From a virus, in the IMG/VR virus record IMGVR_UViG_3300025118_000177, positions 1 through 21,768 of that record: a stretch of 21,768 nt of DNA. One strand, 5' to 3'. The position numbers were made by a program, and so were the translations under genes. The notes beneath the pieces are model-generated. The model saw only the letters and a list, made by a program, of their open reading frames with translations, was not told the DNA's origin and did no database searches. This document shows positions 3-7,747 of the stretch, in pieces; position 1 is the stretch's first letter; every line of letters starts with the position of its first letter.

Positions 3-62
3 ACCCAAGCGGGTGTAAATATAGACATTGCAGGAAGCGTGCCAGAAATGGAAAGTGTTTAA
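3..62 (+). CDS. C-terminal end of an upstream gene (partial)
   Basis: Reading from position 3, nineteen codons stay open and end at TAA 60-62. The peptide ends in SVPEMESV and has an ordinary protein composition (VNIDIAGSVPEME). The other two plus-strand frames stop at 16-18 and at 77-79; the latter encodes a Cys/Arg-rich, less protein-like string. It is most likely the last codons of a gene that starts to the left of the window. Nothing can be said about function. The same strand as all downstream genes fits one continuous phage transcription direction. Confidence 0.5.
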   Translation, partial: TQAGVNIDIAGSVPEMESV

Positions 63-360: not shown

Positions 361-618
361 TATATTAGAAATTGCTAATGTATTCAGTATATTAGGGAGT
401 TCTAATATAAAGCTGGATAGGTACATTAGCATTGTCTAATTTAGAAAGTCCTAATATAAGCAGATGCTAATATACAGCCTGCCGAGTATATTAGGACTTG
501 CTAATATAAGAACTCTCTAATATAAGAACTCTCTAATATAAGAACTCTCTAATATAAGCAGATGCTAATGTAGCGTTGTCTAATTTAGCAAGCTCTAATA
601 TTAGAAGATGCTAATATA
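361..618. repeat. CTAATATA iteron-like repeat array (15-16 bp period)
   Basis: Thirteen CTAAT cores start at 375, 402, 436, 451, 467, 501, 517, 533, 549, 565, 580, 595 and 611. From 501 on, the spacing is 16, 16, 16, 16, 15, 15 and 16 bp. Three consecutive units (501-548) are identical, CTAATATAAGAACTCT. Inverted copies, TATATTAG or TACATTAG, start at 361, 388, 422 and 487. Each lies exactly six bases before a direct copy, giving dyads such as 388-395 with 402-409. The stretch 424-476 is repeated imperfectly at 568-620. No gene lies here. It could be an iteron/replication site, a cooperative protein-binding array, or the short-repeat zone next to a terminal repeat, as in T7. Confidence 0.9.
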
Positions 619-651
619 CATGGGGAGCAGGGGGGTGCGTCAGACGCTAGT

Positions 652-762
652 ATGTTTCCCTCTACAACAGAATATCTCAGAGAAATGTCTTCATTAGTTT
701 CAATGGCTTACCAGACTTACCTAACACCTAGATTTAACCAGCGGCCTATTAAGACTACTTAG
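652..762 (+). CDS. Possible 36-residue small protein
   Basis: An ATG at 652 opens 36 codons ending at TAG 760-762. The predicted peptide (MFPSTTEYLREMSS at its start, then VSMAYQTYLTPRFNQ) has a natural amino-acid mix and no low complexity. There is no convincing Shine-Dalgarno site: the nearest purine run is the G-tract at 622-635, too far upstream. It lies between the repeat array and promoter P1, so it would need transcription from further left. The frame stays open upstream to 589 but without a start codon. It may be a chance ORF or a remnant of a longer gene. Confidence 0.25.
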   Translation: MFPSTTEYLREMSSLVSMAYQTYLTPRFNQRPIKTT

Positions 763-776
763 AAGCTAATTAGTTC

Positions 777-805
777 TTGACACGTAGACAGAAACGGCCT
801 ATAAT
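777..805 (+). promoter_or_regulatory. Consensus sigma70 promoter P1
   Basis: TTGACA (777-782) and TATAAT (800-805) are separated by exactly 17 bases, a perfect match to the housekeeping sigma70 consensus. The predicted transcription start is near 812. The palindrome CTAATTAG (766-773) ends three bases before the -35 box. The transcript would have a leader of about 200 bases before the first good gene at 1010. Confidence 0.85.
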
Positions 806-970: not shown

Positions 971-999
971 TTGACACCTCTCTATTTATCTGATATAAT
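971..999 (+). promoter_or_regulatory. Consensus sigma70 promoter P2 with extended -10
   Basis: TTGACA (971-976) and TATAAT (994-999) are 17 bases apart, and TGA precedes the -10 box, giving an extended -10 (TGnTATAAT). Positions 990-1011 are identical to 5520-5541 at promoter P3, although the 17-base spacers otherwise differ. The usual start, six to seven bases after the -10 box, would fall at about 1006, only a few bases before the ATG at 1010. Confidence 0.88.
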
Positions 1000-1009
1000 A
1001 TAAGGTAGG

Positions 1010-1384
1010 ATGAAGAACCTACTCTACATACTCTTTCTATTGCTTCTCATTCTCTCACCTTCAGTGGTCTGGGGTCAGGAGATATGTGTATCCCAACCTC
1101 TGATGCATGAGAGGATTACCATTGACAAGGACGTTGAACTAATCCACGTAGAGAAGAAGCTTATCAAAGTACAGTACTTTATAAAAGTTTTCAATAAGGA
1201 GGCCCCAGTTTCTAACCTAAGTGCGTCTTCCATCTATGTCTACTTTAAGAAGGGTGATACAAGTGTTTTGGTTCTCTTCGGGTCTTCTGAAGACTGTATG
1301 CAGAACTACGCTGTAGTACCTTTAGCCTTTGTAAATAAACACCTAATTGATATTCAGTGGGATGTCTCTAACCTAATAACCTAA
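1010..1384 (+). CDS. Small exported protein of unknown function
   Basis: This 124-residue protein opens with a clear secretion signal: Lys2, a hydrophobic core of Leu/Ile/Phe at residues 4-15, then a likely signal peptidase I site after Val-Trp-Gly22. The mature part of about 100 residues appears beta-rich and carries two cysteines (Cys26, Cys96) that could form a disulfide in the periplasm. There is no lipobox. The start fits because the signal peptide begins exactly there. AGGTAGG (1003-1009) touches the start codon, and promoter P2 would begin transcription only about four bases upstream. It lies directly before the terminase genes. I do not recognise the family. A role in superinfection exclusion, envelope modification or lysis is possible but unsupported. 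Confidence 0.75.
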   Translation: MKNLLYILFLLLLILSPSVVWGQEICVSQPLMHERITIDKDVELIHVEKKLIKVQYFIKVFNKEAPVSNLSASSIYVYFKKGDTSVLVLFGSSEDCMQNYAVVPLAFVNKHLIDIQWDVSNLIT

Positions 1385-1426: not shown

Positions 1427-1945
1427 ATGATGAAGTACCCTGAACATAAAGATCTTCTAAAAGACCCTATGGGCCGTTATAGGACTCAGTCACTCTTTAG
1501 GGAGTTCTATCAAAAGGACCCTCCTATATGGACACTCTCTGAGGAAGACCCTCAAGGTAAGCTACCGTCTTTAAAGGCTTTGTATATGGAAGTAGGAGAT
1601 CCTACTGAGTACCAATTTGCTATGGAAGCCTTTGGTAGTTGGAAGCAATGGTTAAAGATTAAGAGTGCTAAAGCTATCCAACCCTACATAGAAGACTGGT
1701 CTATGGAGCTTTCCCTTAAGATACGCTCTGAGGGTATCCGGGGTGTGATGCTAGAGTCTAAGAACGGTAAGAATAAGTACAATGCTTCTAAGGCTCTTGC
1801 TGAGGGTTTCTGGTCTAAGGAGTCCGCAGCTAAGCGTGGCAGACCTTCTAAGGAGGAGGTGGCTAAAGAGTTAAAGATTGCAGCTAAGCTTGATGCTGAG
1901 TTTGCTGATGATGCAGAACGTATAGGTCTGGCTATTGTCAAGTAA
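1427..1945 (+). CDS. terS: Probable terminase small subunit
   Basis: This 172-residue protein lies immediately upstream of, and overlaps by 11 bases, the large terminase gene, which is the normal place for the DNA-recognition subunit of the packaging motor. The C-terminal third carries a basic, AT-hook-like RGRPSKEE stretch near residues 137-144, followed by a charged helix. I recall the same ending from annotated small terminases of other podoviruses. AGGA at 1418-1421 lies five bases before the ATG; a second ATG follows directly at 1430. In the family the protein forms a ring, binds the pac or concatemer junction and hands DNA to the large subunit. The assignment rests on position and tail motif; the N-terminal DNA-binding fold cannot be confirmed by eye. 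Confidence 0.68.
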   Translation: MMKYPEHKDLLKDPMGRYRTQSLFREFYQKDPPIWTLSEEDPQGKLPSLKALYMEVGDPTEYQFAMEAFGSWKQWLKIKSAKAIQPYIEDWSMELSLKIRSEGIRGVMLESKNGKNKYNASKALAEGFWSKESAAKRGRPSKEEVAKELKIAAKLDAEFADDAERIGLAIVK

Positions 1946-3488
1946 CAGCAATATTGATGAGGAGATTAGACTGGCTGCTGAAGCTGACTTAGTCTCCTTC
2001 ATACGGCTTGTGTCTCCTCGTACAGTCCTAGGTGCTGTGCATACGGAGCTAGCAGAATGGTGGTGCAGGGAATCTGGTAAGAACTTCCAACTTGTACTGC
2101 TGCCACGAGATCATCAAAAGTCTCGTATGGTAGCGTATCGAGTAGCGTGGTACCTTACCAAACACCCTGACCATCGAGTTCTCTACATCAGTTCAACGAG
2201 TAACCTAGCTGAGAAACAGTTAAAGTTTATTAAAGATATCTTCACCTCTAAGATCTACAGAAGGTATTGGCCCGATCATGTCATACCTGAAGAAGGTAAG
2301 CGTGAGAAGTGGACTAACACAGAAATCTCATTAGACCATCCACTACGTAAGGAGGAAGGTGTACGTGACCCCAGTGTCTTTACTGCTGGCCTTACTACTT
2401 CTATTACCGGTCTCCATTGTGATGTTGCTGTCATGGATGATGTGGTCGTATATGAAAACGCCTACACAGAGGACGGAAGGCAGAAAGTCAAGTCTCAATA
2501 CTCTTTGCTGAGTTCTATTGAAGGTGCTGATGCCCAAGAATGGGTAGTAGGTACTCGCTACCACGCTAAGGATTTGTACAATGATCTGATGGAGATGGAA
2601 GAGGAGATCTACGATGATGATGGTGTACCTATTGAGTATGACCCCATCTATGAGAAGTTTGAGCGACAAGTTGAAGATCGTGGTGATGGAACTGGAGAGT
2701 TCTTGTGGGCTAGACAACAGCGCTCTGATGGTAAGTGGTTTGGCTTTGATCGTCGTATCCTAAGTCAGAAGCGTGGTAAGTATCTGGATAAGACTCAGTT
2801 CTTTGCTCAATATTATAACAATCCTAACAACCCAGACGGTAAGGGGATTGATCCAAGTAACTTCCAATACTACGATAAGGCTCATCTAACACGCACCAAC
2901 GGTCAATGGTTTATGAAGGGAGAAAGATTAAATGTCTTTGCCGCTATCGATTTTGCTTTCTCTCTTACTAAGAAATCTGACTATACTGCCCTTGTTGTTG
3001 TGGGCATTAGCAGTGCTGGTGTATATTATGTACTCGACATAGAGCGCTTTAAGACTGACAAGATCAAGGACTACTACGATGCCATCTTACGGATGCACGT
3101 TAAGTGGGACTTCAGAAAGCTACGAGCAGAGACTGTATCAGCACAGAAGGCTATCGTAAGAGAACTAAAGAATAGCTACATAAAGCCTAACGGGCTTGCT
3201 CTCTCCATAGAGGAGCATAACCCTACTAGGCATAGTGGGTCTAAGGAGGAACGTATCAGAGCCATCTTAGAAGCTCGGTACGATAACCTCAGCATTTGGC
3301 ATTACCAAGGAGGTAATTGTCAAGTCCTTGAGGACGAGCTTATACAGGAGTACCCACCACATGATGACGTAAAGGATTGCTTAGCTTGCGCCATCGATAT
3401 AGCAGTACCACCTAGTAGGATGTCGCGTACATCCAATGAGAATAACGTAGTGTATCACAGCCGCTTCGGTGGCGTAGCTTACGGGTAA
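1935..3488 (+). CDS. terL: Terminase large subunit (packaging ATPase-nuclease)
   Basis: This 517-residue DNA packaging motor has a clear two-domain layout. The ATPase half has a Walker A variant LLPRDHQKS (residues 55-63), a Walker B strand VAVMDD (164-169) and a GTRYH coupling motif (205-209). The nuclease half has an RNase H-like core with Asp338 in AAIDFA, Asp348 in KKSDY, and a C-terminal acidic cluster HDDVKD (476-481). Length is normal for the family. The start is TTG at 1935: the frame is closed by TAG at 1923-1925, and no ATG occurs before residue 65, which would remove the P-loop. The overlap with the small subunit suggests translational coupling. The enzyme docks on the portal, pumps DNA with ATP and cuts the concatemer. 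Confidence 0.93.
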   Translation: MSSNSNIDEEIRLAAEADLVSFIRLVSPRTVLGAVHTELAEWWCRESGKNFQLVLLPRDHQKSRMVAYRVAWYLTKHPDHRVLYISSTSNLAEKQLKFIKDIFTSKIYRRYWPDHVIPEEGKREKWTNTEISLDHPLRKEEGVRDPSVFTAGLTTSITGLHCDVAVMDDVVVYENAYTEDGRQKVKSQYSLLSSIEGADAQEWVVGTRYHAKDLYNDLMEMEEEIYDDDGVPIEYDPIYEKFERQVEDRGDGTGEFLWARQQRSDGKWFGFDRRILSQKRGKYLDKTQFFAQYYNNPNNPDGKGIDPSNFQYYDKAHLTRTNGQWFMKGERLNVFAAIDFAFSLTKKSDYTALVVVGISSAGVYYVLDIERFKTDKIKDYYDAILRMHVKWDFRKLRAETVSAQKAIVRELKNSYIKPNGLALSIEEHNPTRHSGSKEERIRAILEARYDNLSIWHYQGGNCQVLEDELIQEYPPHDDVKDCLACAIDIAVPPSRMSRTSNENNVVYHSRFGGVAYG

Positions 3489-5306: not shown

Positions 5307-5511
5307 TGAAGAGGAGAAGGATAAGTTCAGAGAATACATACTAAACTCCACCAGCCTATGGGAAAGACTGGGCCAAATTATAGAGGAGAAGGCTCCCAAG
5401 ACAGTGCCAAAGGACTACGACAAAGGTTCTTGGGCGTATTACCAAGCTGACCAACTGGGTTACCAAAGAGCATTAAATGATATCTTAATGGTATTACCTC
5501 TTGACAAGTAA
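5263..5511 (+). CDS. Small protein overlapping the portal gene
   Basis: This 82-residue acidic/basic helical protein of unknown function starts inside the portal gene and overlaps it by 44 bases in another frame. AGGAG at 5249-5253 lies nine bases before ATG 5263. An alternative ATG at 5284 would shorten it by seven residues. The end (WAYYQADQLGYQRAL) looks like a genuine helical protein, and genes of this size often sit between portal and scaffold. Its last codons contain the -35 box TTGACA of promoter P3, so coding sequence and promoter are shared. Function unknown. Confidence 0.75.
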   Translation: MTKRLSTMWTSHLNSEEEKDKFREYILNSTSLWERLGQIIEEKAPKTVPKDYDKGSWAYYQADQLGYQRALNDILMVLPLDK

Positions 5512-5529
5512 CCTTTAACCTGATATAAT
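5501..5529 (+). promoter_or_regulatory. Consensus sigma70 promoter P3 ahead of scaffold and capsid
   Basis: TTGACA (5501-5506) and TATAAT (5524-5529) are 17 bases apart, with an extended -10 TGA just before. Twenty-two bases at 5520-5541 are identical to 990-1011 at P2. The transcription start would be near 5536, inside the AGGTAGGA that also looks like the ribosome site of the scaffold gene (ATG 5551). The site would boost scaffold and capsid, the most needed structural proteins. Confidence 0.88.
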
Positions 5530-5550
5530 ATAAGGTAGGATCAAAAGACC

Positions 5551-6304: not shown

Positions 6305-7243
6305 ATGGCAATGACAACTGGTAATGTCACCCATCTTACTCGGAGTGAGGTTTGGTCCTCGCAGCTAAAAGACGTACTGGAAGACGAGTTGCTCGCTACC
6401 CAGTATGTTGATTGGCTCTCTGAGTTCCCTGATGGTGACACCTTTACGATTCCTTCAATTGGTCAGGCCCAGACGGAAACGTATACAGAGAACGAAAGCA
6501 TCACGTATGCTCCGCTTGACACTGGTGAGTTCCAGTTCACGATTACGGAGTATCTGGCTTCCGGTATCTACATCACTGAGAAAGCTAAGCAGGACATGTT
6601 CTACATGAACCAGTTGGTTTCCTCTTTTGTTCCTAAGCAAGAACGCGCGATCATGGAAGACGTTGAGGCTTATATCCTTAACCTGTCTGCTAGTCAGACT
6701 GCTTCCGATCTCAACACGATCAATGGTGCTGACCACCGCTTTGTTGCTTCGGGTACTAATGAAGTCTTCCAGACTGATGACTTCGCCAAAGCTCGTTATG
6801 CCCTGAAGAAGGCTAACGTGCCTGACACAGACTTGGTTGCTATCGTTGACCCCTCGGTTGAGTATACGCTTAATACTCTGTCGAACTTGACCAATGTCAG
6901 TAACAACCCCATGTGGGAAGGTATTGTGTCTTCGGGTATTGCAACTGGTATGAGGTTTGTTAAAAACGTGTATGGCTTTGATGTCTACGTTTCTAACAAC
7001 TTAGCTACTGCTAACGAGACCGTTGACTCGGTTACGACTGCGGCTGGTAAGGCTAATATGTTCTTCTCTGCTGCTTCTGATGTGGTGCCTTTCGTAGGTG
7101 CGTGGCGTCAGATGCCGAAGGTTGACTCCGAATACAATAAGGATCGTCAGCGCGAAGAGTATGTTGTTACGGCCCGTTATGGTGCGAAGTTGTACCGTCC
7201 TGAAAACCTCGTTTGTATCCTCAGTGATACTGACCAAGTTTAG
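6305..7243 (+). CDS. Major capsid protein
   Basis: This 312-residue protein right after the scaffold gene is the expected coat protein, with the HK97-type fold inferred from position, size and pattern. It has an N-terminal helix (SEVWSSQLKDVLEDELLA), an aromatic/Thr-rich E-loop-like stretch around residues 45-80 (TFTIPSIGQAQTETY), a long central helix with an acidic EDVEAYIL segment, and a C-terminal RQREEYVVTARYGAKLYRPE. GAGG at 6292-6295 lies nine bases before the ATG; a second in-frame ATG follows at 6311. Codon use differs visibly from neighbours, with more CGT, CTG, TTC and ACG and few CTA, as expected for the most abundant protein. The stop codon overlaps the next gene's ribosome site. 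Confidence 0.88.
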   Translation: MAMTTGNVTHLTRSEVWSSQLKDVLEDELLATQYVDWLSEFPDGDTFTIPSIGQAQTETYTENESITYAPLDTGEFQFTITEYLASGIYITEKAKQDMFYMNQLVSSFVPKQERAIMEDVEAYILNLSASQTASDLNTINGADHRFVASGTNEVFQTDDFAKARYALKKANVPDTDLVAIVDPSVEYTLNTLSNLTNVSNNPMWEGIVSSGIATGMRFVKNVYGFDVYVSNNLATANETVDSVTTAAGKANMFFSAASDVVPFVGAWRQMPKVDSEYNKDRQREEYVVTARYGAKLYRPENLVCILSDTDQV

Positions 7244-7255
7244 GAGGATTGTATA

Positions 7256-7747
7256 ATGACTAAATGGGTAAACAGTGATGGCTTGGAAGTTCTCTATGGA
7301 AGTTCTAAAGCTGAAATGCGTAAAGGTGGTGAAGTGAACCACGGTGGCTCTCTTCGTGAGGTCCTTGTGACGATTACTGGTACGGATGTCCCTGCTGCGG
7401 ATGCCCCTATCGATAAGCGTATTACTCTTCCTTCCGGTGCGTACATTGACGAAGTAACCTTGAACGTCACGACTGCGTTCACCTCTGGTGGTTCTGCCAC
7501 GTTGGATATTGGGCTTATGCTTGATGACAATGACGGTACGTACAGCACCAGTGATGACAACGGTCTTGATGCAGCGATTGCGGTTGCCACCTTGGCGGAT
7601 AATTACCGTGTCCTGTGTGATGGCGCTCAAGTTGAAACTACTGTTACGGATAGCACTAACGGACTTCCGTTGGCTGTGTCCTATGGCTACAACACTGCGG
7701 CCTTTACTGCTGGTGTTGCGGAGTTGTCGATCAAGTATCGGGTCTAA
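7256..7747 (+). CDS. Capsid-associated beta-rich protein, probable decoration protein
   Basis: This 163-residue protein begins 12 bases after the capsid gene, with a strong AGGAGG (7242-7247) eight bases before ATG 7256. The sequence is beta-rich, with alternating hydrophobics (YIDEVTLNVTTAF, SATLDIGLML, AELSIKYRV) and one cysteine, and no membrane segment. It shares the high-expression codon choice of the capsid gene, implying a protein made in comparable amounts. Decoration or cementing of the capsid is the best guess from these facts. No family signature is recognised. A strong hairpin follows the gene, so scaffold-capsid-decoration may form one abundant transcript. Confidence 0.68.
   Translation: MTKWVNSDGLEVLYGSSKAEMRKGGEVNHGGSLREVLVTITGTDVPAADAPIDKRITLPSGAYIDEVTLNVTTAFTSGGSATLDIGLMLDDNDGTYSTSDDNGLDAAIAVATLADNYRVLCDGAQVETTVTDSTNGLPLAVSYGYNTAAFTAGVAELSIKYRV

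Follow-up and report, generated by a model that had tools for sequence, protein, structure and literature searches.

A symmetric dyad array in the gene-free hub of a marine Zobellviridae podovirus and its possible role at the replication-start and genome-junction region

Genomic context of the array

The window, the whole 21,768-nucleotide stretch analyzed here (IMG/VR record IMGVR_UViG_3300025118_000177), is the late half of a marine, Cobavirinae-like podovirus of the Zobellviridae, on a contig that starts at the hub separating early from late operons and does not include the early genes. Its large terminase subunit (TerL) is 65% identical to those of Siovirus phages (Roseobacter and Celeribacter cobaviruses of the Zobellviridae), and its gene order, TerS–TerL–portal–scaffold–capsid, is the order of the family. 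Early and late genes diverge from the gene-free hub in the relatives L007, L029, and ICBM1, and the array that we describe lies in this hub, immediately 5' of the packaging and structural genes (Table 1). We found no contig in IMG/VR that reaches to the left of the window. A first-pass annotation of the DNA had placed the array in gene-free DNA, and the whole region 1–1009 indeed lacks any ORF of at least 50 aa. Between the two late promoters we also observed three tandem copies of TACATAAACTACATACC (886–936), and the promoter region at 969–1014 has an 80% identical 46-bp copy at about 5499–5544, before a scaffold-like gene.

Table 1. Features of the hub and the first late genes in the window
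Feature	Position	Strand	Remarks
TGGCACGCTTCCTGCA, copy of TGGCAYR-N4-NTGCW	29–44	-	resembles a sigma-54 -24/-12 site
Array of 13 dyads, TATATTAG-N6-CTAATATA	361–618	.	from dyad scoring and simulation
Left part, spaced dyads	361–494	.	361–382, 388–409, 422–443, start of 487–508
Dense part, eight overlapping dyads	487–618	.	15–16 bp steps; clean CTAATATA half-site at end
G-rich tract	621–640	+	GGGGAGCAGGGGGG at 622–635; 3 bp from array
Predicted physical genome end (right edge of terminal repeat)	655–668, near 660–668	.	from homology to ICBM1
Conserved box TATCTCAGAGAAATG	673–687	+	just past predicted end
Perfect sigma-70 promoter	777–805	+	TTGACA-17-TATAAT
Perfect sigma-70 promoter	971–999	+	TTGACA-17-TATAAT
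Small protein, first late-side ORF	1010–1384	+	signal-peptide-like N-terminus
Probable small terminase subunit (TerS; phrog_8035)	1427–1945	+	name inferred from position before TerL
Large terminase subunit (TerL)	1935–3488	+

Anatomy of the array

The unit of the array is a 22-bp dyad with two-fold symmetry, and its 13 copies (starting at 361, 388, 422, 437, 453, 487, 503, 519, 535, 551, 566, 581, and 597) match 12–16 of the 16 letters of TATATTAG-N6-CTAATATA, while the top score in the rest of the window was 12/16, reached three times. Composition-matched simulation of a 260-bp stretch (n = 2000) gave an expectation of 0.26 exact CTAATATA/TATATTAG octamers, with a maximum of 3, against 11 observed, and of 0.03 exact TTAG-N6-CTAA dyads, with a maximum of 2, against 7 observed. 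The first-pass annotation had reported thirteen CTAAT cores and four inverted copies, a 15–16 bp period after 501, and a constant six-base gap on the left, all of which we recovered: the cores start at 375, 402, 436, 451, 467, 501, 517, 533, 549, 565, 580, 595, and 611, with steps of 16, 16, 16, 16, 15, 15, and 16 beyond 501, the upright inverted copies (TATATTAG or TACATTAG) start at 361, 388, 422, and 487, and the gap from TTAG to the next CTAA is exactly 6 nt in 7/7 cases, on the right as well as on the left. Its division into an inverted left side and a direct right side, with a direct repeat as the unit, gave way to a simpler description: one dyad runs throughout, its copies standing apart on the left (steps of 27 and 34 bp) but overlapping in the right part, where what looked like direct repeats after 501 is a run of overlapping dyads.

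Each 10-bp core in the dense part (CTAATATAAG, CTAATATTAG, CTAATTTAG) is both the end of one dyad and the beginning of the next, which produces the steps of 15–16 bp. Overlap also occurs in the left part, where the dyad at 422–443 is overlapped by those at 437–458 and 453–474, so that dyad centers there are spaced by 27, 34, 15, 16, and 34 bp. This site anatomy is solid; that neighboring dyads would lie on opposite faces of the DNA follows from geometry, not measurement. We rejected an RNA element: the array had no Rfam match above chance, and its inverted repeats by themselves account for the strong DNA fold (z -5.6).

The predicted genome end

Phage T7 carries 7-bp direct repeats, CCTAAAG, that flank its terminal repeat, and our locus resembles it in having a short repeat array adjoining what we presume to be a podovirus genome end. 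As the first-pass annotation had stated, the unit is different; here it is a 22-bp dyad with a sequence other than CCTAAAG, and the genome end is a predicted one. We placed this physical end from ICBM1, in which a comparable G-rich tract, located where the sequenced genome ends, closes the direct terminal repeat on its inner side and is followed by ...GTACAAC and then a box near ATTTACTAACAGAAATTC, the end falling between ...TACAAC and ACAC. The window has the G-rich tract, CTACAAC (662–668), and TATCTCAGAGAAATG in the same order, an order also seen in some twenty relatives. Direct terminal repeats lie in the hub of ICBM1 (172 bp), ICBM2 (159 bp), VpV262 (138 bp), and RIO-1 (121 bp) (PMC6775973), and a terminal repeat of 120–175 bp, as in these relatives, is predicted to extend over a large portion, or the whole, of the dense part. 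The locus thus resembles the terminal repeats of the cobaviruses ICBM1 and ICBM2 (PMC6775973) in its place between early and late modules and in having a conserved box after the G-rich tract at the end, but ICBM1 has no comparable dyad array.

Other arrays in the same slot of relatives

Several relatives carry other motifs in the same slot, close to the G-rich tract, including AATG-N5-CATT dyads in L010, L011, and L012 (eight, five, and eight copies) and GATAG-N7-CTATGA in L025 and L030 (six copies at 21/26-bp steps). Window-wise 7-mer clustering of the slot revealed clusters in L007, L010–L012, L020, L032, L077, and others, with the leading 7-mer on the promoter side in L015–L022, and no significant comparable array in ICBM1, RIO-1, VpV262, or L029, so hub arrays are common but not universal. 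Their motif is not conserved among relatives. L003, although 99.5% identical to the window, begins only at position 782, which puts it outside this comparison. The first-pass annotation had suggested looking for the array at the same place in related phages, and the outcome is mixed: the closest relative covering the slot (L004, TerL 82%) does not have this sequence but other, marginal repeats, while several relatives have significant arrays of their own there and the same dyad recurs in unrelated phages.

Transcription control is a close rival to the replication-start and junction reading that we develop below because the array motif of L025 and L030 also occurs 5' of the first early gene, as it does by eye in L010, L015, and L020. 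The array would then be an operator or enhancer block through which a phage regulator acts on the divergent promoters of the early and late operons. Its position between divergent operons, followed by two perfect sigma-70 promoters and accompanied in the hub by a sigma-54-like element, agrees with such a switch, though neither of the sigma-70 promoters reaches into the array (the distance is about 160 bp), thirteen is a large number of sites for a switch, and phages having the dyad share no common regulator. We regard a transcription switch as a serious but doubtful possibility.

The sigma-54-like element, TGGCAYR-N4-NTGCW, also behaves unlike a promoter, occurring in either direction in relatives and in up to six copies; since its orientation is not conserved, it may instead be a protein site. 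In every examined genome having a copy it is confined to the hub, with six copies in VpV262, all within 173–346 of 46 kb, four in G005, three in G001, and one each in G007 and the window. G015 has four, each beside the G015 dyads, and L025 and L030 have four in tandem, spaced by 27–39 bp; copies sometimes form head-to-head palindromes. Beyond the window, copies were located at 173–346 in L228 and 78242–79751 in G015.

The same dyad in unrelated phages

We scanned 2.9 million viral contigs for two neighboring TATTAG-N6-CTAATA dyads and detected 15 contigs with a spacer of 6, none with a spacer of 7, and eight with a spacer of 8, most of them lone TATTAGG..CCTAATA-like pairs of a different type. 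The spacer-6 matches included isolated pairs (L315, L319, and L325) and what resembles a coding repeat (L328), and the true dyad arrays were those of L127, L157/L161/L326, L316–L318, L320, L322/L324, L323, and L321/L327. The dyad recurs at a period of exactly 16 bp in L321, L327, and L323 (seven, seven, and eleven copies). The array-bearing contigs are partly related to each other and represent about five independent lineages. Comparison of the array with annotated phages by blastn returned chance-level matches only, a search of bacterial genomes for period-16 direct CTAATNTA returned 62 matches, mostly without the dyad, and our literature search turned up nothing relevant on the motif, nor a family of host sites for TATATTAG-N6-CTAATATA. 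The element is apparently new to the literature, and its distribution suggests that it may be a swappable control or replication-start element.

Two of these contigs combine the dyad with DnaA boxes. L161 has 12 boxes (TTATCCAC) interleaved with dyads at 2921–3187, in a 270-bp stretch (2921–3195) just upstream of TerL that we consider a candidate DnaA-dependent phage origin, and in L127 the boxes at 3153–3204 adjoin 19 dyads; a TTWTNCACA scan of the window found no DnaA boxes. Through L157 (TerL 61%), L161 is a relative of the Pelagibacter phage Baldr. All six contigs that have both a recognizable TerL and a dyad array carry the array 5' of TerL, 0.1–6.5 kb away; the six include L157, of the window's array-bearing sister set, which is related to L161.

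This placement relative to TerL would suit a genome-end or packaging element, in which sites at the concatemer junction guide the cutting and duplication of the terminal repeat, as would the distance of 3 bp between the array and a tract found at the genome end of ICBM1-type phages and the extent of the dense part that a terminal repeat would take in. The small terminase was tried as the sequence-specific binder and rejected: in alignments, TerS is ~60–70% identical among phages with wholly different arrays and has no hypervariable DNA-binding segment linked to the motif, which weakens a TerS-read site and with it the packaging signal among the functions listed in the first-pass annotation. 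The sequenced ends of ICBM1, VpV262, and RIO-1 also have no comparable array, and we consider a packaging role unlikely.

A motif that differs among close relatives yet is common to unrelated phages would also be expected of a decoy that soaks up a host regulator during infection, with the motif following the host. The hub array units of L007 (7810–8110), L010 (5480–5720), and L012 (8000–8260) resemble the E. coli Fur box, sites in this group matching 16–17 of 19 letters of its consensus, with 4–9 sites of at least 14 letters per phage. A decoy would leave unexplained the constant place beside the genome end and the 1.5-turn overlap, and the window's dyad corresponds to no host site family in the literature searched; we find this explanation quite improbable. 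Neutral expansion of an AT-rich repeat appears more improbable still. Three tandem 16-bp units at 501–548 are identical, as they would be after recent slippage, but the spacers of the dyads keep a fixed length despite their variable sequence, relatives have significant arrays of their own in the slot, and the same dyad and period occur in unrelated phages, including the arrays of L321 and L327 on contigs with a GC content of 0.45–0.50.

A possible replication-start and junction site

We tentatively propose, with somewhat less than even confidence, that the array serves a dimeric protein as a landing pad, occupied cooperatively, at a replication-start and junction hub. Each dyad, its two half-sites on the same face of the DNA at a distance of one helical turn, would be bound by a putative dimeric DNA-binding protein, and in the dense part successive dimers would advance by 1.5 turns to alternating faces, so that the entire stretch could be coated cooperatively. 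The most likely job of such a complex would be to mark and open the replication-start and junction region, with the array providing initiator or accessory sites, and effects on divergent early and late transcription may be a secondary role. We prefer this reading because DnaA boxes accompany the same dyad and because of the position in the hub. The first-pass annotation had listed an iteron, a packaging signal, a partition site, and a regulator array, a list that took in the likely answers but made no choice among them; the location of the array at the early/late junction, where relatives have their genome ends, and the dyads beside DnaA boxes in two unrelated phages now support it in part. 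For ParB/parS-type partition, we recognized no parAB-like genes in the window, which covers the late half.

Iterons are usually same-orientation repeats with near integral-turn spacing and an initiator gene nearby. The array resembles iteron origins in having many close copies of one motif at a divergent locus that is free of genes and in the company that its dyad keeps with DnaA boxes in L161 and L127, but it consists of symmetric dyads at 1.5 turns (15–16 bp) and has no known initiator gene. Overlapping dyads at ~1.5 turns would fit putative dimers on alternating faces, as in tandem operators of the Fur/DtxR type, from which the array differs in sequence. Zobellviridae do not have their own RNA polymerase (PMC9960094) and thus are without a T7 type of origin; the literature we searched does not settle how their replication starts.

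The cumulative GC skew minimum falls in or near the hub in 6/7 complete or near-complete family genomes, a measure confounded with gene direction; in VpV262 it lies about 1 kb outside the hub. With the same confounding, the minimum is near the array in G011 and inside it in G014, and in G015 it is 4 kb away from the arrays. Against the replication reading, the window lacks DnaA boxes, ICBM1, RIO-1, and VpV262 have no significant array of the window's kind, and the array of G012 coincides with a skew maximum and is flanked by genes pointing toward it, a setting that does not look like an origin.

A shared phage gene as the binder was rejected, as none of the protein families occurs in every array-bearing contig, so a binder from the host, or a phage regulator that is swapped rapidly, would be likelier than a fixed phage protein. 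We also considered the first early protein (ORF1), a fast-evolving family of 150–190 aa with 19–34% identity that adjoins the hub and was seen in L004, L007, L012, L015, L020, L022, L029, and L036; it had no Pfam match, and its AlphaFold model (pLDDT 78) had no clear structural match, which speaks neither for nor against it as the binder. A more general proposal, which we consider rather unlikely, is that one widely conserved, probably host, protein reads such arrays at the hubs of unrelated phages, and that lineages swap whole arrays while keeping the hub architecture; if so, virulent phages would have in the array a modular start element matched to the host. Because the dyad recurs in unrelated phages, we predict that one protein, perhaps from the host, could be retrieved with array DNA, and the combination of a fixed hub layout with exchangeable operator arrays offers a defined 258-bp target for footprinting or pull-down.

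Near the first early genes of L029 we also observed ATTTAATCAGTTAAA and its inverse (6900–6945 and 7563–7577), which resemble the operators that an early regulator would be expected to have.
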